DNA of 58,089 bases from contig JACNGQ010000168.1 in assembly GCA_014384025.1 (NCBI GenBank), positions 1 to 58,089 on the forward strand. Reading direction: 5' to 3'. A program made the position numbers and the translations under genes. Of this stretch, positions 7,597-31,439 are shown one piece after another. Within the stretch, counting starts at the first letter, position 1. The number at the start of each line of letters is the position of its first letter. The DNA comes from Planctomycetota bacterium. GTDB lineage: Bacteria; Planctomycetota; Phycisphaerae; Sedimentisphaerales; Anaerobacaceae. A model generated the notes under the pieces. The model saw only the letters and a list, made by a program, of their open reading frames with translations. It ran no database searches and had not been told where the DNA came from.

Positions 7597-8229
7597 ATGG
7601 TATTTTGGCTCGGTATATTAACCGGCGGACTCTTCATCTGGTTCGCAATGAAAATAGGCTTCTACGAAATGTTGGCCATGTTTCTCAATATCGTAATTTC
7701 TATCTATGTAGCCATCTTCCTATCGCCGGTAATTTTAGATATTATCCCAGAGGCCGGTGATATACCCTGCAGTAACGCCTTAGCCTTAGCAGTTTTAGGA
7801 GCAGGTACTTTTTTTATTTTGTATGGAATTACATACGTTTTTCTTACAGGCCAATTTAAGGTCTCCTTTCCAAAATCATTTGACATTCTATTGGCAGGCG
7901 TCCTGGGTTTCCTGGTCGGCTTTCTTGTTCTAAGTTTCGCGGCTTTTGTAATCACTATTACCCCAATTTCTCAAAACCGCTTCGTAAGACATATAGGTTT
8001 GAATAGAAATTCTCAGCAGGCCAACATATCTTATATCTGTTTTTGGTGCGATTTGGTTAATTCGATAGTATCGGCGCCGGACAGCAAGATCACAAGTAAA
8101 CAAGCCGTTGAGCAGTTGCTCAGCGAGACGCAATCAAAAACACCTGAAAAAGAAGCCGGACAAAGTACCCTTAGTACGCCTGTTGAGCCTGACGGCTCAA
8201 ATGAAGAGCATCAGCCTGAACCACCGTAA
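7597..8229 (+). CDS. CvpA-like integral membrane protein
   Basis: This 210-residue protein has four predicted membrane helices in its first 135 residues (GLFIWFAMKIGFYEMLAMFLNIV onward) and a polar, Pro/Glu-rich cytoplasmic tail. Layout and length resemble the CvpA/colicin V production family, which is widespread and poorly understood, but the similarity is one of pattern, not a firm motif match. It starts 5 bp after the GspE-type ATPase gene with no strong ribosome binding site, consistent with translational coupling. Confidence 0.5.
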   Translation: MVFWLGILTGGLFIWFAMKIGFYEMLAMFLNIVISIYVAIFLSPVILDIIPEAGDIPCSNALALAVLGAGTFFILYGITYVFLTGQFKVSFPKSFDILLAGVLGFLVGFLVLSFAAFVITITPISQNRFVRHIGLNRNSQQANISYICFWCDLVNSIVSAPDSKITSKQAVEQLLSETQSKTPEKEAGQSTLSTPVEPDGSNEEHQPEPP

Positions 8230-8274
8230 TATGCCAAGTAAAAATATTTCCGGACCGGATTAATACTTTCATCA

Positions 8275-8511
8275 TCACGAACTATGGGGACAGGCTCCCA
8301 TTGAACAGGCACTCGTTGGAGACGGACCGCTCGGGCACGATTCGCAGGCCTGGACTGCTGCTTTGCTTTGCCCAACGGCAAAACCGCTTAAAAGCTTCTT
8401 CAAGTCGGAGCTGTTGCACTTTTGGCAGTTATGTTTTCGAGGAGTACTCGTTTTTTCCAAAAACTCCATCGTGTGACCACATTTGCTGCACTTGTATTCA
8501 AATATCGGCAT
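8275..8511 (-). CDS. FmdB-family zinc ribbon protein
   Basis: A 78-residue protein starting MPIFEYKCSKCGHTMEFL with a second CxxC (NCQKC), the classic FmdB/CxxC_CxxC_SSSS putative regulatory zinc ribbon. The C-terminal tail is rich in Cys, Ser and Pro (CESCPSGPSPTSACSMGACP) and could bind a second metal. The role of this family is mostly unknown. It lies just downstream of the PfkB-HAD gene on the same strand. Confidence 0.85.
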   Translation of the reverse strand: MPIFEYKCSKCGHTMEFLEKTSTPRKHNCQKCNSSDLKKLLSGFAVGQSKAAVQACESCPSGPSPTSACSMGACPHSS

Positions 8512-8564
8512 TTTTTAATCTCGTACTAAAAAACAGTGTAAATTCACTCACGGAAGTCCACCGC

Positions 8565-10466
8565 TCAGATGGAACCGAACAATAATTTTATAAGTATTTC
8601 ATGCTGAGAGAAATCGGGCACTATGACATGTGCGCCGGCTTTAATCAGACGGGTGCGTTTTTCTGCGCTTAAGCCATGACGGCGGATTTCATCGCTGGCG
8701 ATACCAACGGCAATACCGTCCCGTTTGCGGCATTCGCGGATCTCAACAGGACCATCGCCAAAGACAACAAGCTCAGAGCCCTGTAAATTGTTCTCAGCCA
8801 TTATTTTTTCTATGACCATTTTCTTGGAATATTTGGTGACATCACCTACCGAACCGTAAATGCCGCCGTCAAAAAGTTCCGCGTAACCGAGCGCTTCGCA
8901 CTCGGCGATAACATCGTGGCGGTCGGTGCCACTGGCAAGGTAAAGTTTTATACCTCTTTTTTTCAGGGCTTCTAAAAACTCCAACGCGCCTTTGATTGTA
9001 TAATCATTTATGTCGAGCTCGCCGCTTTTGAACTTTTCGATTCGCCTGTTAACAAGCTCCATCAGGGCATTATTATAAATTTTCTTATAGCCTAATTTAT
9101 CGAGGATTTTATCAGCTCTTACGATGCCAAACTCTTTGACCATCTCGACCAAGGCTTCCATCTGTATGATGGTCTGCATGCCCGTGGAGCTATCGATATA
9201 GTCGGCGATACGTGTTCTGGCCTTGTGATAAAGAGTTTCGTCAGCGGTTTCGTATTTATCACCGAGAACAGCCCTGACCATTACGGGAGCCATAATCTGC
9301 TCCCACCCCTGCCTTAAAGTGCTTATAGTCCCATCATTATCAAAGACGGCGTGCTTTATTCGACCAAACGGTATCGATTCATAGCAAAGTTCTATTTCGC
9401 TGTCTTTGAAATAACAAGCGCCTCGCCGGTCTGAAGCGAGTTCCGGCTGATAGATATAATCCGGGTCTTTTCCGATCTCGAGGATTTCGGGGCCTGAAGC
9501 CGTGCCGGTCTGGTATAATTTCTGAACGGTAACAGCGGCCGCTAAATTAGCAAACTCGGACGCCTCGGCCGGCGGGACACCTGCACCCAGACATAAAGCT
9601 AATGCGCTTGTCACCGTATCTCCGGCCCCGACAATATCGAGCTTTTTCAACAATTGAATACCCGGCACCTCGTGAATGCCATCCGAATCAACGGTTATGA
9701 TGCCGCGTGGGCCACGAGTAAGAAACACGGGCTTATTAAACTGCCGATAAAGATTCAGGGCGTATTTATTAACATCCGCCAATGTAAGAACATCATCCAA
9801 TTTGACTTCGGCTTTGTTCAACTGGGCCGCTTCCAAATCATTTGTCTTGCGGTAGATATTTTCGAACTTGCGGCCAAAGTGTCTCGAATCAAGCAACACT
9901 ATTTTGTCCGCATATTTCTTGAAAAGAGCATTGGCCTGGTCGATGAAAGATTCGTTTGTAATACTACCCGGGACCTGCTGGTTCACAATCAGGACATCCG
10001 CTTTCTCCAGAGCCTCGGTAATACCGTTCAGCATCGCCTGGTCGGTTTCTTCGGTTCGTTTGTTGAAAAAACCAAAGTCGATACGCGGCTGCTCTTTGTC
10101 CTCAAGATACGGCTTGCCGAAGGTAACAGTATCGAAATTTTCCTTTTGAATAACCAGATGTTTCGTATCGACATTAAGCTCGTGGAACTGGCGTCTTAGC
10201 TCTCTGCCGAAGATATCGTCTCCCACAACTCCTATTACCTGTATGACCGCCGGGGCGAGGGCGGCAATATTGGCAACGACATTCGATGCGCCACCAAGAG
10301 AATAATAATGTCTTCCTACGGCCTGGGCCTGAAGACCGGTTTCCAACGAAACTTCCGAGCCGCGAGCATCGAGCAACCAATATGCATCAATACAGAAATC
10401 ACCATAAACGGCTATATTAACGTTCTTAATCTGAGTCAGGATTTCATTGATGCGATTTTCTTTCAT
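8565..10466 (-). CDS. PfkB-type sugar kinase fused to a HAD phosphatase
   Basis: The 633-residue protein joins two enzymes. Residues 1-335 are a PfkB/ribokinase-fold kinase close in style to the heptose-7-phosphate kinase (HldE N-domain): GDFCIDAYW, the glycine motif SLGGASNVVANIAAL, and the catalytic GAGD (base Asp283). Residues 370-633 are a HAD hydrolase: nucleophile motif FDNDGT (Asp376, Asp378), LASGTD, a conserved Lys, and VVFGDGPVE. Kinase and phosphatase in one chain must act on different substrates or positions, or be regulated reciprocally. The ribosome binding site AAAGGTGG precedes the ATG. It is the last gene of the operon AGE epimerase, DHS-like protein, kinase-HAD; the substrate is unknown. 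Confidence 0.87.
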   Translation of the reverse strand: MKENRINEILTQIKNVNIAVYGDFCIDAYWLLDARGSEVSLETGLQAQAVGRHYYSLGGASNVVANIAALAPAVIQVIGVVGDDIFGRELRRQFHELNVDTKHLVIQKENFDTVTFGKPYLEDKEQPRIDFGFFNKRTEETDQAMLNGITEALEKADVLIVNQQVPGSITNESFIDQANALFKKYADKIVLLDSRHFGRKFENIYRKTNDLEAAQLNKAEVKLDDVLTLADVNKYALNLYRQFNKPVFLTRGPRGIITVDSDGIHEVPGIQLLKKLDIVGAGDTVTSALALCLGAGVPPAEASEFANLAAAVTVQKLYQTGTASGPEILEIGKDPDYIYQPELASDRRGACYFKDSEIELCYESIPFGRIKHAVFDNDGTISTLRQGWEQIMAPVMVRAVLGDKYETADETLYHKARTRIADYIDSSTGMQTIIQMEALVEMVKEFGIVRADKILDKLGYKKIYNNALMELVNRRIEKFKSGELDINDYTIKGALEFLEALKKRGIKLYLASGTDRHDVIAECEALGYAELFDGGIYGSVGDVTKYSKKMVIEKIMAENNLQGSELVVFGDGPVEIRECRKRDGIAVGIASDEIRRHGLSAEKRTRLIKAGAHVIVPDFSQHEILIKLLFGSI

Positions 10467-10483
10467 CGTTAACCACCTTTTAG

Positions 10484-11515
10484 TTATGACTGTTCTACAA
10501 TCTTTTTATACAGTAAAAGAAATGTTTGTTTCTGGTCGCCATGTATATAAAAGCCTTTGCCGCTAAATGCCTGTGGAATTCGTGTTATAATGCTTTTTTG
10601 GTCGCGAAAATAATAACCTTCTTTAGATTCATCGCTCATCGCCTTCGGCTCATGAGAGCGAAGGTCAAAGTCGGCAGTGATTATATTATTCGGGACAGTT
10701 CCTGCGTTGGCGGCCATTGAGACGGCTTTAAGCAGAACCTCCGGGCCTGTTACGGCGCTTCCAATATTAAGTATTACGCCGCCGCTCGTTAATTTGGCTA
10801 TTTCGTTTGTATAGATAAGAAAATCCCGGCCGGAACATCCGCCTTTTGCCTGACCGTTGAAGGATGGATGCTGGTCGATTACATCTGTGCCTATCCCAAC
10901 GTGAACGGTGAAGGGAATATTATTCTCATAACAGGCGGCAAGAACACTTACTTGCGGATAGCTAAAACTGCTCGGTGAATTGTCTTTTGCAACGGAATTA
11001 AGGACTTGGCTGCGGAAATCTTCATTACAGATTGTTTTGCCGAGTGATTCACCACAGCCCAGTTTGTTTTCATTGCCGACGGACAAAGCATTGTTGATAT
11101 AAGCAAATTCGTAAGCCATTCCAAATCGGCCCTTGCCGAGAGCATCGGGAACATTTTCGCTGGTTTGGCCTATCAGCGCCAGTTCAAAATCGTGTATTGC
11201 AGTAGCACAGTTACCGGCTACCAGGCTAACAAGGCCTCGCTTTACAAGGTCGGCAAGCAAAGGTCCGAGCCCGTTCTTTATCAAATGGGCACCTGTGAAA
11301 AGAACAACGGGCTTGTCTGATTTTCGGTAAGATATAATCGCCCGGGCAATGGTATCGATATCACTGCAAATTTTATCCGGCAAATCAATAACAACATTGT
11401 CAATGTCCCCGGGCTTGATAAGGTCATCAGACGTAACCTTATTGCTGCGGGTGCTCAAAGGGTACGTATTGATTTTATTAATGTCAAAAACTTTGTATTT
11501 TCCGTCGTACTGCAT
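10484..11515 (-). CDS. Deoxyhypusine-synthase-like protein of unknown function
   Basis: A soluble protein of 343 residues from the ATG at 11515, or 357 from a TTG at 11557 that would overlap the AGE epimerase gene; neither start has a clear ribosome binding site. It has a Rossmann-like pattern: VVLFTGAHLIKNGLGPLLAD, LVAGNCATAIHDFELALIG, FTVHVGIGTDVIDQHPSF and GGVILNIGSAVTGPEVLLKA. The arrangement recalls the NAD-dependent deoxyhypusine synthase family, but bacteria lack hypusine and the canonical catalytic lysine motif is not evident, so the resemblance is only suggestive. Position between a sugar epimerase and a sugar kinase-phosphatase points to carbohydrate metabolism. Confidence 0.6.
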   Translation of the reverse strand: MQYDGKYKVFDINKINTYPLSTRSNKVTSDDLIKPGDIDNVVIDLPDKICSDIDTIARAIISYRKSDKPVVLFTGAHLIKNGLGPLLADLVKRGLVSLVAGNCATAIHDFELALIGQTSENVPDALGKGRFGMAYEFAYINNALSVGNENKLGCGESLGKTICNEDFRSQVLNSVAKDNSPSSFSYPQVSVLAACYENNIPFTVHVGIGTDVIDQHPSFNGQAKGGCSGRDFLIYTNEIAKLTSGGVILNIGSAVTGPEVLLKAVSMAANAGTVPNNIITADFDLRSHEPKAMSDESKEGYYFRDQKSIITRIPQAFSGKGFYIHGDQKQTFLLLYKKIVEQS

Positions 11516-11528
11516 ATATAAATATCTG

Positions 11529-12809
11529 TTATTTAAGCTTTTCAAGTAACTTTTCAAGCCGCTTTATGGACTGTACCATACAGCGAACGGTATGATAATT
11601 AACCTTCCAGGAATGGCTCATATGCGTCCAGACAGGTTCGCCCTCTCTGGCAAGCAGCGGCCACCACTCACCTACGGGATGGTTTATCATCTTATCGAAA
11701 ACAAAACGGTGCACGTTTACGTAAGCGGGCCAGTATTTTTCAGGGTCGAACCGCAAGGCCCCTTCCAACATTCCAATCATAACCTCCGCCTGTTGCCAGA
11801 ACTCTTTTTCCCTGTCGTAAACACCGCCGGCATGCGGACCTTCGACATAAACACCGCCGTATTCGTCGTCGATACCATTGGTCATTCCGTGATCCATCGC
11901 CTTTATAATAATGTCACGGTATTCTTCAAAGCCTTCACCCATAATGTCCGTAGCATGGGCCAATAGCCAGGCAAATTCCACGTTGTGACCGGCGGAGGTA
12001 TTGTCCCCTGCATTGGGCTTTTCTCCGCCCTCGGCAAAACGGTCCCAGCCCCAAATGATATCAAACTTTATCTGCGGCGCTACCTTCCAGTCGGGTGTGA
12101 ACTGTGGTATTCCGGTGGCGTACTTTGGGTGGATGATTCTCTTTATCAGAATATCTATATCTTCGATTAATTTTCGGCGGTGTATGCTTTGGCCGCTGCA
12201 TTCATACAATGTGGTAAACGCCTCCATCAGGTGCATGTGGGCATCGAGGGTCTTTCTGTCACCCCCACCGCTTCCCGGCCCGCACAGGTCCCAGTTCCTC
12301 TCAAACATCTCGAAATAACCGCCGTACATCGTATCGGCACAGTACTTCTGCATAAGGTCGAAAACCTTCTCGGCATATTCCAGGCCTCTCGGGTCACCCG
12401 TTGCCAGGGTATATTCGCTGAGTGAATAAATCGCAAAGCTGAAGCCATAAATAATCTTCTTATCGATAGCGACATTGCCCTTGCGGTCCACCGTCCAGAA
12501 GAATCCGCCGTATTTGTTGTCCCACATCTTATCGATGAGAAAATCGACGCCGTGTTTGGCATACTCGGCACATTTGCCGTTGCCGTAACCGGCTCTATGG
12601 GCCGAAGCCATCGTATAAACGGTACGGCTCTGAGCGATTAATGATTTCTCGTCCTCACCGGTATCATTACCGTCCTTATCGAAGTGAGTAATAAAGCCGC
12701 CGTTCTTATCGTCCTTACATCGGTCCAGCCAGAAAGGCAGAAGTTCTGTGGTCAGATGTTTTTTGCATTCTTCGAGACAGGCCGATACCTGCTTAGCATC
12801 AACAGCCAT
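11529..12809 (-). CDS. AGE-family sugar 2-epimerase
   Basis: A 426-residue (alpha/alpha)6-barrel enzyme of the N-acylglucosamine 2-epimerase/cellobiose 2-epimerase family. Typical pieces are DKNGGFITHFDKDG near the N-terminus, YGFSFAIYSLSEY, TLDAHMHLMEAFTTLYE, AGHNVEFAWLLAHA and WTHMSHSWKVNYHTVRCM, which supply the conserved active-site histidines. Members interconvert C2 epimers or aldose/ketose pairs; the sugar cannot be read from sequence. No signal peptide, so it is cytoplasmic. A strong AAAGGAG ribosome binding site precedes the ATG. It is the first gene of the three-gene sugar operon. Confidence 0.9.
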   Translation of the reverse strand: MAVDAKQVSACLEECKKHLTTELLPFWLDRCKDDKNGGFITHFDKDGNDTGEDEKSLIAQSRTVYTMASAHRAGYGNGKCAEYAKHGVDFLIDKMWDNKYGGFFWTVDRKGNVAIDKKIIYGFSFAIYSLSEYTLATGDPRGLEYAEKVFDLMQKYCADTMYGGYFEMFERNWDLCGPGSGGGDRKTLDAHMHLMEAFTTLYECSGQSIHRRKLIEDIDILIKRIIHPKYATGIPQFTPDWKVAPQIKFDIIWGWDRFAEGGEKPNAGDNTSAGHNVEFAWLLAHATDIMGEGFEEYRDIIIKAMDHGMTNGIDDEYGGVYVEGPHAGGVYDREKEFWQQAEVMIGMLEGALRFDPEKYWPAYVNVHRFVFDKMINHPVGEWWPLLAREGEPVWTHMSHSWKVNYHTVRCMVQSIKRLEKLLEKLK

Positions 12810-12894
12810 TTTGCACTCCTTTCAATTAATCGTTAGATATCTTTTTTCAACAAGTCAAGTCAGCTTATCAATAGAATTGCCAAATAATAACAAA

Positions 12895-12920
12895 AATGCC
12901 CGCTGATAACAACGGGCATT
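12895..12920 (-). terminator. Rho-independent terminator of the HEAT-repeat gene
   Basis: An 8-bp perfect stem (AATGCCCG at 12895-12902 pairing with CGGGCATT at 12913-12920, 10-nt loop) is followed on the minus strand by a T-rich run. It lies about 80 bp after the stop of the leftward HEAT-repeat gene and separates it from the sugar operon. Confidence 0.75.
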
Positions 12921-12970
12921 ATATGTAAAATTGAATGCAGGAAATTTTCCTGGTATTTCGAAACCGGGTT

Positions 12971-12984
12971 CCTGCTTTCGCAGG
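12971..12984. repeat. Small REP-like hairpin CCTGC-TTTC-GCAGG
   Basis: CCTGC and GCAGG form a tight hairpin in the tail of the HEAT-repeat transcript. A near copy, CCTGC-AAAA-GCAGG, occurs before ftsH at 52157-52170. Two copies in 58 kb are weak evidence for a dispersed palindromic repeat. Confidence 0.3.
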
Positions 12985-12999
12985 GATTTCGGCTTTGCC

Positions 13000-14772
13000 T
13001 CAGCTTTTTGCCTGGTCGAGGATGAGGTCCTTTACTTTTTGGCTGGGCAGATTAAGCGCCCCGTAAGCGGCAGCCGCTGCGCTGCGAAGTTCGGGATCCG
13101 TTTCGTCTGAGCTGATAAGTGAATAAATCGCATCAACCATCGGATCGACCAGCATATTTGCATTTAACTTTGCTGAAGTAGCGAGGGAGTCAAACGCCGA
13201 TATTCTCACATCAGCATCATTGTTATTATCAAGGGCCATCCCCGTTATTGCCCGCTGTGCTCCGGGGCTGTCGAGATGAGCTAAAATCTGACCGGATAAA
13301 ATCTGGATTTGTTTTCGCTCGTCATTTACAGCATTTACAAGTGCATTCTGAGCGGCAGATAAATTGATAACAGGATTTCTGGACAGAGCCAACTTGAGCA
13401 TGGCCTGGGCTGCTCTGAGGGCATAGCTATCAGCTATCTGTTCGTCCAACTGGGTATTTGCTCCTAAAGCCGCTGCCAAATTCGCAACGACAAGCTTACT
13501 TTCGGCGAATGGCTCTTTGGGTCCTGCCGCAGCTACTGCTATAGCAGCACTGTATCTTACCTTTATGTCATCAAAAGACAGGGCCTCAAGCAGCGGCTGA
13601 GCCGGTCCAATGCGATAAAGCAAGGATTTTTCACCGGCGGTGGTACCCAACGCCTCAATAACACCAAGTGCGACATGTGCGTTCTTGTCTTTGACAGCCC
13701 TTGCAAGAGCCTGATGGAGATATTCAACTCCTGCGGTTGTGGCATAGACAAGTGCATCTGCGTGGCTCTCGCCAAAGTAACTGGGCATCGTCTCGATACC
13801 AGCGGACTCAGCTTTGAAAAAGGCAGCTATCCAAAGGCCTATAGCCGGACCGAATCCCGCGTCGGCTTTGAGCGCCCATTCGCAGCAGCGCATCGCCATA
13901 AGTTCATTAAAGTAACTGCCGGGAACTTCTACACGAGTTAATCGCCGCTGATTAGCATCCCAGAACCAAATATTGGCAGAATCGGTATCATTAGCAGGAG
14001 TTAATGATTGCGAATGATAATAGTATTTCTCTGCAAGCTCAAAAAACAACTGAGCCGCCGAAATTTTCAAAGTACCCGGATCAATTTTCATCAGGCTGAT
14101 TTTGGCCAGTTGACTAACTTCAGCCGAAGCATCGTTTTCAACAATATACTTCAGATAAGCCTGTGATTGGGGATAACCAATCTTACCTAATGCCTGTATT
14201 ATCTGGGCCTTGAGGGCCACATTATCAGTCTGCAATGCTGCGCCAAGAGGTCTTATTGCATCCCTGCCAATTTGTGGAAGTGCCCGTACGATATCCGGCA
14301 ATTCCGCATCGCGGGAATTGTCAGCTATAGCATCAAGCATAAATGGTATCGCATATTCACCCGCGTTGCGAAGCCGTTTAACTGCTGTAAACCAACCACG
14401 GTCGGTACTGCTTAGCCTCTTTATCTCTGTCACAATAATCCCCGGATCGGCCCGGCGTGTATAGCTACCCTGCTCGATAAGGTCGATGATTTTACCGCTC
14501 AATTCTTCCAGCTCAGGATCAGGAGCAAATTCGTTGACTCGTAATAAAATCGCGTAACCCTGGGGATTTTTTTTAGTTAGCTCAAGCAATTCTACAGGAT
14601 TCGGATTGCCTTGCAGGATCACCTGTGCATATCCCTTGGCTAAATCGGGTCGGCCAATCTTGGTATAATGCAGGAAATGATTCCAGTCCTCCTCAAGAGT
14701 CTGAGCAAAACCGGCACTAACTACAATAAGTGTCACTGCTAAAATTGCTACGGCAGTTTTTCCGTTGAACAT
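13000..14772 (-). CDS. Exported HEAT-repeat protein
   Basis: A protein of about 590 residues with a Sec signal peptide (FNGKTAVAILAVTLIVVSAGFAQ) and no membrane anchor, so probably periplasmic. The body is alpha-helical with several HEAT/PBS-lyase-like repeats, for example IVRALPQIGRDAIRPLGAAL and IIQALGKIGYPQSQAYLKYI, and more after residue 370. Such scaffolds bind other proteins; no catalytic motif is seen. The ATG at 14772 is preferred over 14778 because it puts AGGAGAA at the normal distance. It is probably monocistronic, with a terminator downstream. Confidence 0.75.
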   Translation of the reverse strand: MFNGKTAVAILAVTLIVVSAGFAQTLEEDWNHFLHYTKIGRPDLAKGYAQVILQGNPNPVELLELTKKNPQGYAILLRVNEFAPDPELEELSGKIIDLIEQGSYTRRADPGIIVTEIKRLSSTDRGWFTAVKRLRNAGEYAIPFMLDAIADNSRDAELPDIVRALPQIGRDAIRPLGAALQTDNVALKAQIIQALGKIGYPQSQAYLKYIVENDASAEVSQLAKISLMKIDPGTLKISAAQLFFELAEKYYYHSQSLTPANDTDSANIWFWDANQRRLTRVEVPGSYFNELMAMRCCEWALKADAGFGPAIGLWIAAFFKAESAGIETMPSYFGESHADALVYATTAGVEYLHQALARAVKDKNAHVALGVIEALGTTAGEKSLLYRIGPAQPLLEALSFDDIKVRYSAAIAVAAAGPKEPFAESKLVVANLAAALGANTQLDEQIADSYALRAAQAMLKLALSRNPVINLSAAQNALVNAVNDERKQIQILSGQILAHLDSPGAQRAITGMALDNNNDADVRISAFDSLATSAKLNANMLVDPMVDAIYSLISSDETDPELRSAAAAAYGALNLPSQKVKDLILDQAKS

Positions 14773-14995
14773 CGACATTTCTCCTAAAAACTCTCTGCTT
14801 TTTTATCACAAAAAGGGCTCAGCGGCCAAAAACCAAAACAGATAAAGAACCAGATTTGCCAGCCCTTACCTCCAAAAACACCTCTATTGAAGCGATTCTG
14901 CCATATTATATGTGGCCCAAAAACCATCTCTAATTATAATATACTACCAGTAAATAACTTTCTTGTCAATAAAAAACCGCTTTACTTGCCGGAAT

Positions 14996-15175
14996 AAGCG
15001 CTGATTAAGTAATTAATAATGACATTTCAGAGCAAACCGCACGATAATATCGGATATAACAGCTCAATTTGCCTAAAGTACCCTACTGGTTAAGCAAAGA
15101 ATATAATTAAGTAAAAATGCTATTATGCCCTAAAAAAGTGGCTTTACGCTTTTTGTACGTGCTGTTTTTATTTTG
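14996..15175 (+). pseudogene. Degenerate copy of a pseudopilin 5' region
   Basis: This stretch resembles 18996-19170, the upstream region and first codons of the intact pseudopilin gene. Shared exact blocks are CATTTCAGAGC (15023 and 19018), TAACAGCTCAATTTGC (15057 and 19052) and AAATGCTATTATGCC (15115 and 19112), in the same order and spacing. Past the ATG region, similarity continues weakly through the FTLIELLVV codons, but in-frame stops destroy the reading frame. It is the relic of a second pseudopilin gene, or one arm of an old duplication flanking the LamG gene. Confidence 0.6.
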
Positions 15176-15185
15176 CTAAAAATAA

Positions 15186-15220
15186 AGGGGCTTATACCAA
15201 ATCAATCAGTATAAGCCCCT
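15186..15220 (-). terminator. Terminator of the LamG gene
   Basis: A 12-bp perfect stem (AGGGGCTTATAC at 15186-15197 with GTATAAGCCCCT at 15209-15220, 11-nt loop) is followed on the minus strand by TTTATTTTT. It lies about 50 bp after the stop of the leftward LamG gene. Confidence 0.85.
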
Positions 15221-15267
15221 AATTAGTAAATAATCATTGGCTAATATCTTAGTTGTGTAGATGCTAA

Positions 15268-17991
15268 TTACATACCCTGCATAACTTCCAGTATTTCGTC
15301 CTGCGAAAGCGCCCGAGTGTACATGCGGAACTCATCCATAAGACCCGTGAAAGGCCTTCCGTCATCAATAGTCTTTCCTACGCGAGCACCCAGGTCCCAG
15401 TCTCCTGCTATATCCGCAGGATTTTCAACAACAATCTCTTCGATTAATTCGCCGTTGATATAAAGGGCCGCCTTGCCAGATTCTTTGTCGTATGTGCCTG
15501 CAAAATGCAACCATTGGTCCCACGTTACAGTACCTGCACGTATCTGGAAGATTGTAGTCCCGCCATAAGAGCGAAGCAGCCATCTAATATCGCCGCTGCT
15601 TTTTGGCTCAGGGTGAATAAGCCAGCTTTCATCAGATGCTCTGGCGCTGAATATCTCGTGATCTCCACCTGTATTGGCAATATTTATCCAGGCAGCAAGC
15701 GTCATAGCGGATGTCGGTATATCTTCGGCAGGAATACTTGGGCCGTCCAGGTCGAGGTAGCTGCCGGTTGCGAAATTGGCAGCTCCACCGATCTTGCCAT
15801 CGGCCTCGGCTGTGACCGCACCCATTACAACGCCGTCGTGGCCTTTGCCTGATTGATCCTTGACAATATCACCGACTTCGTCAAAGTCATAGTATATAAC
15901 CAGAGACGGATCTATTTCCGGCTCCGGTGCCCTAAAACCGGCAAGGTAACGAACCTCACCATCAGACAAAGCCCGGCCGTAGATTGCGACTTCATCAATT
16001 GCGCCAATCCAGTCGCTTCTCCATCCATCCGAGCCGATGAGGACAGGGGCGGGGCTGCTGGTAATTGCGCCCATTGGGGTCGAGTCGGTCTGCTCTCCAT
16101 CGAGATAGCATTTCAGCGTCGTCCCGTCATGCGAGCACGCGATGTGGGCCCACTCGTCGCGCTCCAGGTTTTTGCCGACGTAGGCCCAGGCCCTGGGCGA
16201 CGTATTGAACGTAAACGCCATGTAGGGCTGAGGGCTGTTCCACCCGTATCGAACCTGCCAGCTCCAACTCGGGCTTCCTGTACTGAGCGCCTTGGCCAAC
16301 GGGGCCGCCTCTGTGCCTTGTCCCTCCGGGTCATCGGCACCAGGTCTTATCCAGAGGGCAATGGAGATCGGACCGGTGACGTCCAGGCTGACATCATTAC
16401 CGACATCAACGTAGGACTCGCCGTCGAATTCCATCGCCATGCCGTAACCGGCCAGTCCATCGACGAATGTCGGGGCACCAACTATAGTACCATCGTTGCT
16501 GTTGCCGGAACCATCTAACACATCATTCTCCAGAGGGTAGAATGCAGCCAGACCATCAGTGCCGGGATCAACCGGCATCGGACGTTCACCGGCAAGGTAG
16601 CGAACCTCTTGCTCGGACAAAGCCCGGTTGTAGAGATTTAAATAATCGACCGAACCGGCCCACAACGGGTCAACACCATAGACGCCCTTGCCGATATGGG
16701 CGACGTCTGTACCGAGACCAGCGATTGAATTACCGGGCGGATCCAGAGCTGCAGTGCCAATCAGTACGCCGTCAATATAGAAGGCAAGCTCGGTGTCATC
16801 TACTGTGCAAACCATATGATGCGGAAGGCCGTCATCATGTTCGATAACGTCACTGACACCGGTTTCTTCGCTCCACGGGTCATTATCCATCGAAACGGTT
16901 TGAATCATCCCGCGACTTACATCATTACCTCGGGCAGGCGTAATACATACATACTTGTAACCGTATCCGGGATTATCACCCGTGCCTTCTTCACCAAACG
17001 CCGTGACCATGTGGTATCCTGTGTTTCCACCGGCAACTGATGTAAACATTATTTCGATAGTCAGCCCTTCGAATGTGTTCATCGCAATAACGTCGCCGGG
17101 CATGTCCATCCAGTCGCCATCACCGTCAAGTACGAGCTGTCCATCGACAACAGCCGCATCACCAATCAGAACACCTTCGGCGTCGCCAACAACATCGTCG
17201 GCCGTGCCATCATCGAACGTCCAGGAGTGAACCAGATTCCCAGCGCCGGGATTAACCGGCTCCGGCTCGGCTACAGAGTCGGCCGAGAGAACCATATGCC
17301 CAAATCCGAGACTCTGGTCATGAGCTTCACGGCCTGTCCAGGTCATCTGAAGTTCTCTATCAACATTGTCGGTGTCGTCGAATACAGGGTGGAATCCGAT
17401 GGTGTTGCCTGCTGAAAAGTCCAATGACGGCATCTGTGCGTATTCGATAGAGACTTCGCAGATGTATCCATCAGCAGTTTCAGTGGCGGCTATCTGCAGG
17501 TATTCAGGCTCGATCGAACCGGCACCGTCTATGTTGCACCAGTTCCATCTCTGATTACTGGCGGTAAAACCGTACTGGTAATGTTCAGAATGATCTGCAA
17601 CGGCGTTTAACGTAGAGAAAAATACTTCTACAGCGTCAGCATTCCAGATATCGCCACCGGTTTTATTCATGGATAACTTATCATCTTTCACCACCACGGC
17701 GATGTAGATGTTCACGTCATCCCATAGCAGATAGAATTCTCCGCTACAGTCCTCAGGGGCGGCCCAGCTATCCTGTCCAGAAAACAATTGCTCTGCCACA
17801 TCAAGAACGGCCGGGGTCATAGCTTCAAGATTCCAGTCGCTCAGATCTCCGTCAATTGTAACAGTACCTCTGAGACAATCTATTACCAGATCTTCTCCAG
17901 TCACTGGGTGTACAGCAGGTGGGGCCGCAATCACCAAACTCACGCTGAACAGAACATAAATTCCCACGAAATAACATTTCTTAGCTAACAT
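15268..17991 (-). CDS. Exported CBM9-like and triple LamG surface protein
   Basis: A protein of 907 residues from the ATG at 17991, chosen because AGGAGG lies 9 nt upstream; upstream in-frame codons lack such a site. A Sec signal (KKCYFVGIYVLFSVSLVIA) is followed by a CBM9-like domain (VTIDGDLSDWN, FYLLWDDVNIYIAVVVKDD). Three LamG/concanavalin-like domains follow, each ending in a related tail: YNRALSEQEVRYLAGERP, YGRALSDGEVRYLAGFR and YTRALSQDEILEVM. No enzyme motif is present. It probably binds polysaccharide outside the cell. It lies near a pseudopilin and a sulfatase, a setting common in planctomycetes. No C-terminal sorting signal was found. Confidence 0.87.
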   Translation of the reverse strand: MLAKKCYFVGIYVLFSVSLVIAAPPAVHPVTGEDLVIDCLRGTVTIDGDLSDWNLEAMTPAVLDVAEQLFSGQDSWAAPEDCSGEFYLLWDDVNIYIAVVVKDDKLSMNKTGGDIWNADAVEVFFSTLNAVADHSEHYQYGFTASNQRWNWCNIDGAGSIEPEYLQIAATETADGYICEVSIEYAQMPSLDFSAGNTIGFHPVFDDTDNVDRELQMTWTGREAHDQSLGFGHMVLSADSVAEPEPVNPGAGNLVHSWTFDDGTADDVVGDAEGVLIGDAAVVDGQLVLDGDGDWMDMPGDVIAMNTFEGLTIEIMFTSVAGGNTGYHMVTAFGEEGTGDNPGYGYKYVCITPARGNDVSRGMIQTVSMDNDPWSEETGVSDVIEHDDGLPHHMVCTVDDTELAFYIDGVLIGTAALDPPGNSIAGLGTDVAHIGKGVYGVDPLWAGSVDYLNLYNRALSEQEVRYLAGERPMPVDPGTDGLAAFYPLENDVLDGSGNSNDGTIVGAPTFVDGLAGYGMAMEFDGESYVDVGNDVSLDVTGPISIALWIRPGADDPEGQGTEAAPLAKALSTGSPSWSWQVRYGWNSPQPYMAFTFNTSPRAWAYVGKNLERDEWAHIACSHDGTTLKCYLDGEQTDSTPMGAITSSPAPVLIGSDGWRSDWIGAIDEVAIYGRALSDGEVRYLAGFRAPEPEIDPSLVIYYDFDEVGDIVKDQSGKGHDGVVMGAVTAEADGKIGGAANFATGSYLDLDGPSIPAEDIPTSAMTLAAWINIANTGGDHEIFSARASDESWLIHPEPKSSGDIRWLLRSYGGTTIFQIRAGTVTWDQWLHFAGTYDKESGKAALYINGELIEEIVVENPADIAGDWDLGARVGKTIDDGRPFTGLMDEFRMYTRALSQDEILEVMQGM

Positions 17992-27651: not shown

Positions 27652-28851
27652 CTACCGTGCGGCATTCTTGCTGTACTCATTGAAGAAAGCGACAAATTCC
27701 GGGAAAAAGGATTCGAACGTGGGGTATTTGTCCCTGTTTGCCTCGTACGTCAGGAGCAGGTTGCTCAGTTCTTTTGTCCAGATGAATCCACAACCGGCCT
27801 CACTATCAAGGTAGTTTTGCAAGTACTCAAGTTCAAATGAGTTTCGAATATAACTCGCTACACATGCCCTGACTACCGACTCGTACATCAAAGACTGCCA
27901 GTTTTGATAGCCTATCCGTTTCATTGCAGGGGCTTTAGCGGTATAGAGCTTTTCCCCAGCCGGTTGTAGCTGCTCCATATATTTATCGACGACAGGATTA
28001 GTGAAGGAATGACAGAACTCATGCGCAGTGGTCTCCAACTTCCTGGGGCGAAACACGGGATTACCGTCCGCATCGGGCAATGGCATGCCGATAATTGCAT
28101 ACTTCTCATGGGTTTGGCTGTCTGTGAATCTTGGCCCGTAATTACTGGGGCCGTTAAGAAAACCCAGCACAAGCCTCAAATCACCCATTTCTTCGATGCC
28201 GAAGAATTCACCGAGCCACGTTTGAAGATCGTATTGTGCCATTACAGCTCGGCAGGAACGAATGCCCGTTTCGTACAGCATGCTATGGGCCTTATAGAAT
28301 TCATTGAATTTCGTCTCGGCCGCAAATTGACGGAGCTGCTCAAGGAATTCTGCCGTTTCCTGTTTCTTCCATCGGCCATCGAGTCCCCAGGGCCATTGTT
28401 CAAAAGTCTTTCGCGGGCGGTAATCACGATCGATATACACCGACAGTGACATCGGGCCGTCACAACTCATCCGGCGCGTACTCCGAAGTCGGCCGGCAAG
28501 CTTTACCACCGGGTGGTTGTCAAAATCTCCGAACTGCCGCTCGATATCCCTCACATATGACCGTATTCGCCCCTGGTTGAATTCATAGTTGCCAGCCAGG
28601 CGGAAGACGATTCCGATCAACTCCACCCGGGGATCCACCTCGATTTTGATAGCGGCGACATTCGGCATGTTCTTTGGCAGTGAGTTGTCGATGGCACCGG
28701 CAGATGAAGGCAGGCCAATGCTATAGACCAGTATAATCGCCGGGACGACCAGCGCCTTGATGGTCCATGAAAACTTATCATTGTAGAAATCAACATTCTC
28801 TAAGGCAACTTGTGGTCTATCGGTTTCGTAGTTGGTAGTCTCTTTGTTCAT
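27652..28851 (-). CDS. DUF4932-type putative zinc metallopeptidase, copy 1
   Basis: A 399-residue exported protein. An N-terminal hydrophobic segment (IKALVVPAIILVYSIG) acts as signal or anchor. The body has VDPRVELIGIVFRLAGNYEF, typical of DUF4932, and TAHEFCHSFTNPVVDKYM, an HExxH zinc site (HEFCH). YESVVRACVASYIR may supply the third ligand, which is inference. The C-terminus YPTFESFFPEFV is shared with the two neighbours. This is the most diverged of three tandem paralogs on the same strand, 58 bp from copy 2. Substrate and role are unknown. Confidence 0.82.
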   Translation of the reverse strand: MNKETTNYETDRPQVALENVDFYNDKFSWTIKALVVPAIILVYSIGLPSSAGAIDNSLPKNMPNVAAIKIEVDPRVELIGIVFRLAGNYEFNQGRIRSYVRDIERQFGDFDNHPVVKLAGRLRSTRRMSCDGPMSLSVYIDRDYRPRKTFEQWPWGLDGRWKKQETAEFLEQLRQFAAETKFNEFYKAHSMLYETGIRSCRAVMAQYDLQTWLGEFFGIEEMGDLRLVLGFLNGPSNYGPRFTDSQTHEKYAIIGMPLPDADGNPVFRPRKLETTAHEFCHSFTNPVVDKYMEQLQPAGEKLYTAKAPAMKRIGYQNWQSLMYESVVRACVASYIRNSFELEYLQNYLDSEAGCGFIWTKELSNLLLTYEANRDKYPTFESFFPEFVAFFNEYSKNAAR

Positions 28852-28909: not shown

Positions 28910-30046
28910 TTACTGTGCGGCCTTCTTGCTGTACTCGTTTAGGAAATCGACGAATTCCGGGAAGAAGGATTCGAAGGTGGGGTATTTGTCCCGATTGCTC
29001 TCGTATGTCTTGAGAAAATTGCCCGCATCTTCGGTCCAGACGAATCCGGCCTTGACCTCGTCCTTCAGAAAATAGTCCAGATACATTAGTTCAAATGAGT
29101 GACGCACGAAACTCATGACACAGGCTCGAACAGCCGTCTCGTGCATTACCGACTCCCACTTCTGGTAGCCTCCCATTCGCATGGCCGGCCCGTGAACTGC
29201 AAACAGCCTCTCACCAGCCGGTTGCAGTCGGTCCATGTACTTTTCCACGACAGGATTGGCGAAAGAATGGCAAAACTCGTGGACAGTAGTACCCAATTGC
29301 TTGGGGCGAAATATCACGGTATTGGCCGCATCGAACGGACGCATGCCCACAATTGCATATTTCTCACTGGTTTGATCGTGTGTGAATCGTACTCCATAGT
29401 TGTAGAATCCGTTGACGAATCCCAGCACAAGCTTCAAATCGCCACAATCCTTGACTCCGAAGAAGTCGACCAGCCATTTCTCAAGATTGAGTGGGCCGAT
29501 CAAGTCTTTGCAGCTTTGGATCCCCGTCTCGTAGATGTCTCTTTGGGCCTTGAAGAACTCGTCGAACTTCGTCTCGGCGGCGAATTGCCTGAGTTTCTCC
29601 AGGAATTCGGCCGTCTCCTGTTTCTCCCATCGGTAGTCGAGTGTTGAAGGCCACTCTTCGTCGGTCTTCCGCAACCGGTAGTTACGGTCGATATGGACAG
29701 CCAGCGACATCGGGCCGTCGCAGCTCATCAGATGCGTCTTGCGGAGCTCGGTGGCCATCTTGATCACAGGATGATTGTCAAAGTCACCGAAGTGTTTCTC
29801 TATGGCCTTGACATAGGGCCGCAGAGTGCCATCGTTAAATTCAGGACTGCCCGCCAGGCGAAAGACGATTCCGATCAACTCGACCCGGGGATCTACCTCG
29901 ATTGTGATCCTGCCGATATTCGCTCTATACACAGCAGGTGGATTATCGACAGCAAGAGATGATGAAGACATACCTAAGCTGCAAGCCAGCATAACCATCG
30001 ATATGACAAACGCCTTGATAATCTGTGAAATTCTGTTTTTACTCAT
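28910..30046 (-). CDS. DUF4932-type putative zinc metallopeptidase, copy 2
   Basis: Second of three tandem paralogs, 378 residues from the ATG at 30046, which has AAGGAGAA upstream; the ATG at 30076 lacks one. It has a signal peptide (AFVISMVMLACSLGMSSSSLA), VDPRVELIGIVFRLAGSPEF, the zinc site VHEFCHSFANPVVEKYM, and the shared tail YPTFESFFPEFV. It is closer to copy 3 than to copy 1: long stretches such as AVHIDRNYRLRKTDEEWPST are identical between copies 2 and 3. Confidence 0.82.
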   Translation of the reverse strand: MSKNRISQIIKAFVISMVMLACSLGMSSSSLAVDNPPAVYRANIGRITIEVDPRVELIGIVFRLAGSPEFNDGTLRPYVKAIEKHFGDFDNHPVIKMATELRKTHLMSCDGPMSLAVHIDRNYRLRKTDEEWPSTLDYRWEKQETAEFLEKLRQFAAETKFDEFFKAQRDIYETGIQSCKDLIGPLNLEKWLVDFFGVKDCGDLKLVLGFVNGFYNYGVRFTHDQTSEKYAIVGMRPFDAANTVIFRPKQLGTTVHEFCHSFANPVVEKYMDRLQPAGERLFAVHGPAMRMGGYQKWESVMHETAVRACVMSFVRHSFELMYLDYFLKDEVKAGFVWTEDAGNFLKTYESNRDKYPTFESFFPEFVDFLNEYSKKAAQ

Positions 30047-30105
30047 TCGACTTCTCCTTGAACTTGTTGTTTTCAATTTTTCATTCCACTTTCTTAATAC
30101 TCTTC

Positions 30106-31320
30106 CTACAGCTTTGCTTTGATGCTGTAATTATTCAAAAACTTCACGAACTCCGGGAAGAAAGATTCGAAGGTGGGGTATTTGTCCCGCTGGTTCTCAT
30201 AGGTCTTGAGAAAATTACCCATGTCTTCGGTCCAGACGAATCCGTGTCCGACCTCGCTTTTCAGGTAATAGTCAAAAAATCTGAGGTCAGCAATTGAGTC
30301 GCGTATAAAACTTGCGACACAAGCCCGCACGGCCGTCTCATACATCACTGATTCCCACTTCTGATAGCCCCTATTCCGCATGGCCGGTTCTTGAACTGCA
30401 AAGAGCCTCTCACCAGCCGGTTGCAGTTGATCCATGTACTTGTCCACGACAGGATTGGTGAATGAATGACAAAACTCGTGCGCGACAAGCACTATTTGTT
30501 GCGGCAGAAATATGACAGTATTTGTCGGATCGAATGGACGCATGCCGACAATAGCATATTTCTCACTGATTTGGTCGGCTGCAAATCGTGCTCCATAGTT
30601 TGCAAATCCGTTGACGAATCCCAGCACCAGCCTCAAGTCGCCCGGATCCTTAACCCCGTAGAAACTACTCAGCCATTCTCCGAGGTCCGCACTCAGGAAT
30701 TTGACAAATTCCAAGCCGGATTGGTCTTTTGCAACTTCATTTTGCTCCAATATACTCTTGCAAGGGCGAATGCCTTGTTCGTAAATCGAACTCTGGGCCT
30801 TGAAAAACTCGTCGAACTTTGTCTCGATGGCGAATTGCCGGAGTTTCTCCAGGAACTCAGCCGTCTCCTCTTTCTCCCATCGGTAGTCGAGTGTTGAAGG
30901 CCATTCTTCGTCGGTCTTCCGCAATCGGTAATTACGGTCGATATGGACAGCCAGCGACATGGGGCCATCGGCACTCATCAAGCGCGTGTTACGAAGCTGG
31001 ACGGCCATCTTGACCACCGGGTGACCGTCGAAATCGCCGAAGTGCCGCTCGATGGCTTTGGCGTATGGTTTAAGAGTACCATCATTGTATTCAGGATTTC
31101 CCGCCAGGCGAAAGACGATTCCGATCAACTCGACCCGGGGATCTACCTCGATTGCGATCCTGCCGACATTAGCTCTGTACATCACAGGTTGATTGTTGAC
31201 GGCAAGAGCTGACGAAGACAGACCGATGCTGAAAACCAATAAGATGACCGTGCAGAAAGCAACATTCTTTACGGCAACCTGGGTTCTTTCAATTTTATTG
31301 TTGGTAGTGTATTTGTTCAT
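30106..31320 (-). CDS. DUF4932-type putative zinc metallopeptidase, copy 3
   Basis: Third tandem paralog, 404 residues from the ATG at 31320. The leader TTCAAGGAGAAGT before this ATG is the same as before copy 2, so the duplication included the ribosome binding site. It has a signal segment (TVILLVFSIGLSSSALA), VDPRVELIGIVFRLAGNPEY, AHEFCHSFTNPVVDKYM, and YPTFESFFPEFV. An insertion of about 17 residues (including AKDQSGLEFVKFL) before the GDLRLVLGFVNG segment distinguishes it from copies 1 and 2. It is first in the transcription direction. Confidence 0.82.
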   Translation of the reverse strand: MNKYTTNNKIERTQVAVKNVAFCTVILLVFSIGLSSSALAVNNQPVMYRANVGRIAIEVDPRVELIGIVFRLAGNPEYNDGTLKPYAKAIERHFGDFDGHPVVKMAVQLRNTRLMSADGPMSLAVHIDRNYRLRKTDEEWPSTLDYRWEKEETAEFLEKLRQFAIETKFDEFFKAQSSIYEQGIRPCKSILEQNEVAKDQSGLEFVKFLSADLGEWLSSFYGVKDPGDLRLVLGFVNGFANYGARFAADQISEKYAIVGMRPFDPTNTVIFLPQQIVLVAHEFCHSFTNPVVDKYMDQLQPAGERLFAVQEPAMRNRGYQKWESVMYETAVRACVASFIRDSIADLRFFDYYLKSEVGHGFVWTEDMGNFLKTYENQRDKYPTFESFFPEFVKFLNNYSIKAKL

Positions 31321-31439
31321 TTTACTTCTCCTTGAATCACTGTGTTTAATTTGCTGCTTCAGTTTTCGATTACACCTTTCATCTTCTTTTTCAATCAAAT
31401 TCCTGTTCTTCTGTTACCTCTTATTTGGTAAATCCGAAA

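Follow-up and report, generated by a model that had tools for sequence, protein, structure and literature searches.

A conserved planctomycete operon linking an AGE-family epimerase, a deoxyhypusine synthase-fold protein and a kinase–phosphatase fusion

Organization of the locus and its products

The window analyzed in this study (a 58,089-nt stretch of DNA of a Planctomycetota bacterium, contig JACNGQ010000168.1) carries three leftward ORFs, all on the minus strand within positions 8565–12809. The initial annotation had assigned them to an AGE-family epimerase, a deoxyhypusine synthase (DHS)-like protein and a PfkB–HAD fusion, and these assignments were confirmed by the ORFs and by profile searches. 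The operon is composed of (i) AGE (11529–12809; 426 aa), a member of the acylglucosamine 2-epimerase superfamily of the D-mannose/D-glucose 2-epimerase type, recognized by profile PF07221 and by identity with the protein of PDB 8h1k, (ii) MID (10484–11515; 343 aa from the ATG at 11515), a GSU2086-family protein with a DHS/ornithine cyclodeaminase (OCD) fold, recognized by profile NF052581 and by its AF2 fold, and (iii) KH (8565–10466; 633 aa), a fusion of an HldA-like PfkB kinase (K) and a C1-capped HAD phosphatase (H), recognized by PfkB and HAD profiles and by the HldA fold.

The start codon of MID is probably the ATG at 11515, which the homologues and the alignment favour, and not the first TTG, at 11557, from which a protein of 357 aa (10484–11557) would be read. 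With the former start, AGE and MID are separated by 13 nt, whereas the latter would create a 29-nt overlap; the genes would then be closely packed without overlapping. The gap between MID and KH is 17 nt, and a well-formed ribosome-binding site of KH (AAGGTGG; 10473–10479, minus strand) precedes the latter gene. A terminator-like hairpin of 11 pairs (12895–12920, minus strand), situated upstream of AGE, between this gene and a HEAT-repeat gene, weakly suggests that a separate transcription unit begins at AGE, although shuffled sequence contains at least as many sites of this kind. Across positions 8000–15300, no Rfam element was found. Elsewhere in the window, two DUF4932 proteins are encoded on the minus strand (27652–28851 and 30106–31398), with an ORF (28910–30076) between them.

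AGE matched the GlcNAc_2-epim profile (PF07221; E 3e-44) and is 66.4% identical over 417 aa to the Runella slithyformis protein of PDB 8h1k, which we take to be the D-mannose 2-epimerase of that bacterium; 16 of the 17 aligned His residues are conserved. The Runella protein is named as a D-mannose 2-epimerase in the titles of two papers (Saburi 2019; Wang 2023) as cited in PMC13363691. Given this likeness to a characterized enzyme, AGE is predicted to epimerize mannose and glucose.

In KH, the PfkB (E 7e-28) and HAD hydrolase (E 1.6e-13) domains lie on a single chain. Domain K (residues 1–335; 9462–10466, minus strand) contains a VGAGD motif at residues 279–283, while domain H (residues 361–633; 8565–9386, minus strand) contains D376xD378GT, S512, K548 and GDG (570–572). 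The HAD motifs and the GAGD motif are invariant across 20 KH fusions, and both halves therefore look active. The best structural neighbour of K is HldA (4e84; Z 34.7, 2.4 Å over 307 residues), the next family scoring Z about 30. KH thus shares the PfkB fold and the GAGD active site with the heptose-7-phosphate kinase HldA, but with 132.6 bits it fails the cut-off (345) of the HldA equivalog model TIGR02198. Moreover, the DYxKG and DPK motifs of the genomic HldE proteins are replaced in K by NQQ and DSR, so the substrate is probably other than heptose 7-phosphate. The comparisons with HldE and GmhA made here rest on the genomic sequences of loci L004, L072, L079 and L100.

MID was assigned to the NCBIfam GSU2086 family (NF052581; 319.3 bits over residues 24–351, cut-off 250), which has no named function in that database. 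Its matches to the Pfam DS family (PF01916; E 0.012, 15.4 bits, cut-off 27) and to ArgZ-like Pfam models were below threshold. The AF2 model of MID (pLDDT 95.8) matched the folds of AgrE, ArgZ, the archaeal LOR/SDH protein 3c2q and DHS with Z 19–21 (8put, Z 20.1; 1dhs, Z 19.6), and the modelled fold therefore appears to fit DHS and the cyanobacterial/archaeal ornithine cyclodeaminases equally (Z about 20). The description of the middle protein as DHS-like is in this sense justified, but its identity with DHS is 11–17% and a genuine DHS-family gene is present elsewhere in the host genome (contig C315). With AgrE, ArgZ and TIGR00300, MID shares 20% identity and the HDxE motif; unlike them, it has no N-terminal domains and its gene is surrounded by sugar genes, not by those of arginine/ornithine metabolism.

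DHS and the OCD enzymes AgrE and ArgZ act by transient oxidation with bound NAD, and the modelled fold suggests that MID may add an NAD-linked step. Residues H77, H108, D109, E111, H205, K263, R304 and R312 are invariant in 51 MID homologues; they would suit redox chemistry and phosphate binding, for which the two Arg residues are candidate ligands. K263 is the sole all-Lys column of the 51-row alignment and, judged by alignment positions only, it lies far from the C-terminal site expected for the catalytic lysine of DHS. In the literature searched, we found neither a published function for GSU2086 nor a paper linking deoxyhypusine synthase with heptose.

Conservation of the operon and distribution of MID

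In a tree of 51 MIDs, two clades (A and B) were fully supported and a third (C) was weaker (91/60). The window MID, although above the cut-off of the GSU2086 family (named after the Geobacter GSU2085–GSU2087 genes), falls within the well-supported clade A, which pairs with KH and often with AGE, rather than with HldE.

Among 41 related genomes, NF052581 scored over its cut-off in 14. AGE (at least 71% identity) and a type-A MID occurred together in 13 of the 41, AGE alone in one and MID alone in none (Fisher p 8e-10, merely indicative because the genomes are related). The order AGE-MID-KH recurs in each of the 12 other relatives that have a type-A MID, and is conserved far above chance. It was also found in 13 named Planctomycetota-type contig loci, which overlap the set of 41 relatives (some of the genomes are identical); two of these loci contain an insertion, namely a GmhA-like gene (L027) or a URO-D gene (L029). 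In L027, L052 and L089, MID and KH are separated by a GmhA-like gene. URO-D/MtaA-like methyltransferase genes recur beside clade-A MIDs (L029, 3494–4627; L044; L045; L047). The initial annotation had suggested a search for the three families as neighbours across Planctomycetes and Verrucomicrobia: the three genes are indeed neighbours in other genomes, mostly of Sedimentisphaerales/Phycisphaerae, while in the sampled Verrucomicrobia MID is accompanied by HldE, not by AGE and KH.

Some loci depart from this arrangement. In genome G024 (74% complete), AGE abuts or overlaps KH and there is no MID (L203, contig C19 of that genome, 6134–9372); this natural MID-less operon suggests that the MID step may be dispensable. 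Conversely, the clade-A MIDs of L035, L040, L048 and L049 have no KH nearby.

The genes accompanying MID differ between the clades. Clade A occurs with the K-H fusion, joined by AGE in Planctomycetota or by a ROK kinase and a GmhA-like isomerase in Bacteroidota/Chlorobiota. Clade B is associated with HldE and either GmhA or Kdo-pathway genes (the latter named by eye) in Verrucomicrobiota, Omnitrophota and Thermodesulfobacteriota. In clade C, found in Chloroflexota, Planctomycetia, Clostridia and Acidobacteriota, the order is H-MID-K, encoded by separate genes, with a GmhA-like gene and often a ROK gene, and several of the loci adjoin ABC sugar transporters (calls made partly by eye). When aligned with GmhA, the GmhA-like proteins retain most of its His/Glu positions. 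Among the fetched loci we observed four types of fusion: K-H, MID-GmhA-like (11 Anaerolineae genomes), MID-H (L054) and GmhA-like-H (L081), which tie isomerase, kinase, phosphatase and MID into one pathway.

To our knowledge, the characterized members of the MID fold group all act on amines, and MID might do the same, its sugar neighbours then marking an amino-sugar step. A DegT aminotransferase gene is indeed present in L041 and in the related cluster L046, but no aminotransferase is seen at the majority of MID loci, and MID is tightly associated instead with the genes of a sugar kinase, isomerase and phosphatase, which makes this reading improbable.

MID was absent from phages and present on two plasmids. 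One of these, the Solidesulfovibrio plasmid pDCAR1 (L201, 7453–10534), carries genes for a PfkB kinase, MID and a SIS protein inside a pseudaminic-acid-type locus.

Relation to ADP-heptose synthesis

The initial annotation knew of no pathway that this gene set fits, a view that is not supported, since the set copies the logic of GmhA-HldA-GmhB and the family of the middle protein is known from the heptose loci of Geobacter (GSU2086). In the ADP-heptose pathway a SIS isomerase (GmhA), a PfkB kinase (HldA/HldE) and a HAD phosphatase (GmhB) likewise follow one another, the fold of K is that of HldA, and clade-B MIDs stand within operons of the GmhA-HldE-GmhB type. The operon of the window differs in the extra DHS-fold enzyme, the lack of an adenylyltransferase, the different substrate motifs of the kinase, the replacement of GmhB by a C1-capped HAD and that of GmhA by AGE. 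In Geobacter, Tn-seq revealed similar electrode-growth defects for GSU2085 (hldE; −3.1), GSU2086 (−3.2) and GSU2087 (gmhA; −3.7) (PMC5585712).

The host genome (G000) has a canonical HldE-GmhA-GmhB operon on contig C80 (HldE and GmhA identified by tblastn, GmhB and the neighbours by eye), accompanied by what reads, by eye, as LpxK and a heptosyltransferase. The possibility that AGE-MID-KH is the sole heptose pathway of the genome was therefore rejected; it represents a parallel module and not the LPS heptose pathway of the host.

Comparison of this LPS operon with its syntenic counterparts (gene names partly by eye) revealed HldE-GmhA-GmhB in G000 as against MID-HldE-GmhB in G028 (99% complete). 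In both G028 and G037 the gene order is that of the host, and MID adjoins HldE where G000 has GmhA. Classical GmhA was not found in G028 or G037, and HldD scored over its cut-off in just three of the 25 clade-B genomes (the only ones counted for this enzyme). These observations could mean that MID stands in for a known heptose step, that of the sedoheptulose-7-phosphate isomerase GmhA or of the 6-epimerase HldD, but we consider this unlikely. Both G028 and G037 encode elsewhere a divergent, insert-bearing GmhA-like protein, and GmhA-like proteins occur alongside MID in 23 of the 25 clade-B genomes and fused to it in 11 others, so MID and GmhA are not isofunctional; a plain replacement of GmhA is weakened accordingly. 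A replacement of HldD was set aside as well, since the three of the 25 clade-B genomes with HldD over its cut-off also contain MID. The divergent GmhA-like gene itself lies among what reads, by eye, as ManA, RluB and a tRNA-queuosine-mannosyltransferase-like gene (regions L193, 5025–8716, and L194, 750–5829). Taken with the Geobacter loci, these arrangements are best read as MID contributing to heptose-type pathways a step that is additional or alternative and not universal.

Proposed reaction sequence and the role of MID

The operon is a real and conserved unit that can be partly explained, as a variation on heptose activation, whose isomerase-kinase-phosphatase logic it combines with an uncharacterized DHS-fold enzyme. 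A short sugar conversion, as proposed in the initial annotation, is implied by the presence of a kinase, a phosphatase and a C1/C2 sugar enzyme. We give a probability of about 0.5 to the reading that a sugar-phosphate module of wide distribution takes its planctomycete form in this operon, and that MID epimerizes or isomerizes a sugar or sugar phosphate within it by hidden redox. Besides MID, the module would comprise an HldA-like kinase, a HAD phosphatase and a C1/C2 sugar enzyme, either a GmhA-like isomerase or AGE. From the observed genes, folds, gene order, fusions and genomic links we infer the following course: AGE would reversibly epimerize a free aldose at C2 (Glc/Man type), and K would add a phosphate to the sugar, which homology places at the anomeric carbon. 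MID, with its DHS/OCD-type NAD fold, would transiently oxidize one carbinol and return the hydride, so altering a stereocentre or the position of a carbonyl. Removal of one phosphate by H would make the sequence irreversible. We tentatively place the MID step after the C1/C2 enzyme, whether AGE or a GmhA-like protein, and ahead of the kinase and phosphatase. The hidden-redox role appears to be the most economical reading of the DHS/OCD fold combined with the invariant His, Asp, Glu and Lys residues and two Arg residues.

Several observations count against this reading. Among them are the MID-less operon of G024, the altered substrate motifs of K and the clade-A MIDs that lack a nearby KH, all described above. 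Many clade A and C loci also encode transporters or regulators for sugars, or glycosidases (GH92, GH38 or GH2), and such a catabolic setting is not predicted by a pathway producing a sugar 1-phosphate; these neighbourhoods suggest that MID often acts on a sugar taken up from outside. They could instead point to a mannose-utilization operon, in which AGE turns mannose into glucose, while KH and MID deal with another constituent sugar of the polysaccharide concerned. The 66% identity of AGE with mannose 2-epimerase is in keeping with this, as are the neighbours of clade-A MIDs (GH92, GH38-like and GH2 enzymes, SSS/MFS transporters, ROK kinases and LacI/DeoR/GntR regulators). However, no transporter or glycosidase adjoins the operon in the window, the GH2 enzyme of L041 is nearest to an exo-beta-glucosaminidase, and neither MID nor the phosphatase is required for mannose use; we regard this alternative as doubtful, if less so than those discussed above.

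Returning to the hidden-redox reading, we suggest more tentatively, and with less than even confidence, its extension to the whole GSU2086 family, which would then be the first sugar-acting branch of the DHS/OCD fold, comprising NAD-dependent hidden-redox epimerases or isomerases of sugar phosphates (perhaps using the nickel-pincer nucleotide in some lineages) that supply a new stereochemical step in heptose-type pathways. MID proteins occur in many phyla without an assigned reaction, and the Geobacter member is tied to heptose genes by transposon data. What is new here lies in the uncharacterized MID reaction and in a network of fusions that shows where to look: the fusions and operons name the partners of MID (isomerase, kinase and phosphatase), and hence its likely substrates, making its function directly testable. 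If hidden-redox editing of sugar stereocentres were true, DHS/OCD chemistry would reach carbohydrates, and the LPS or cell-wall heptose pathways of many bacteria would require revision.

The nickel-pincer nucleotide (NPN) also enters into a further alternative, that MID is a non-LarA NPN enzyme acting on a sugar carbinol. It is suggested by an Anaerolineae locus (L084, 1417–9116) with the order H-MID-K-LarC2-ROK-LarB-LarE-LarC1 and no LarA, by the NCBIfam description of the related TIGR00300 as an NPN-dependent ornithine cyclodeaminase, and by the distribution of LarC within the class of L084 (21 of 25 MID-positive versus 50 of 95 MID-negative genomes; p 0.006, uncorrected for kinship). According to PMC11796402, some 15% of genomes produce NPN but have no LarA, which is in line with the idea. 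Nevertheless, no LarC was found either in the host genome, which is 95% complete, or in 10 of the 14 MID-positive relatives, and among the relatives of the host an association of LarC with MID is absent (4/14 versus 9/27; p 1). We accordingly rejected NPN as the cofactor of the window MID, and hold the alternative as a whole to be very unlikely; the link is hinted at for part of the MID family, as a lead, and not for this operon. LarB, present in 42 of 50 MID-positive genomes, carries little meaning, since it occurs in 33 of the 41 relatives with or without MID. In G000, the LarB gene is flanked by those for TsaD and NAD(P)H-hydrate dehydratase (L158, contig C112, 1305–4081) and lies apart from LarE/LarC.
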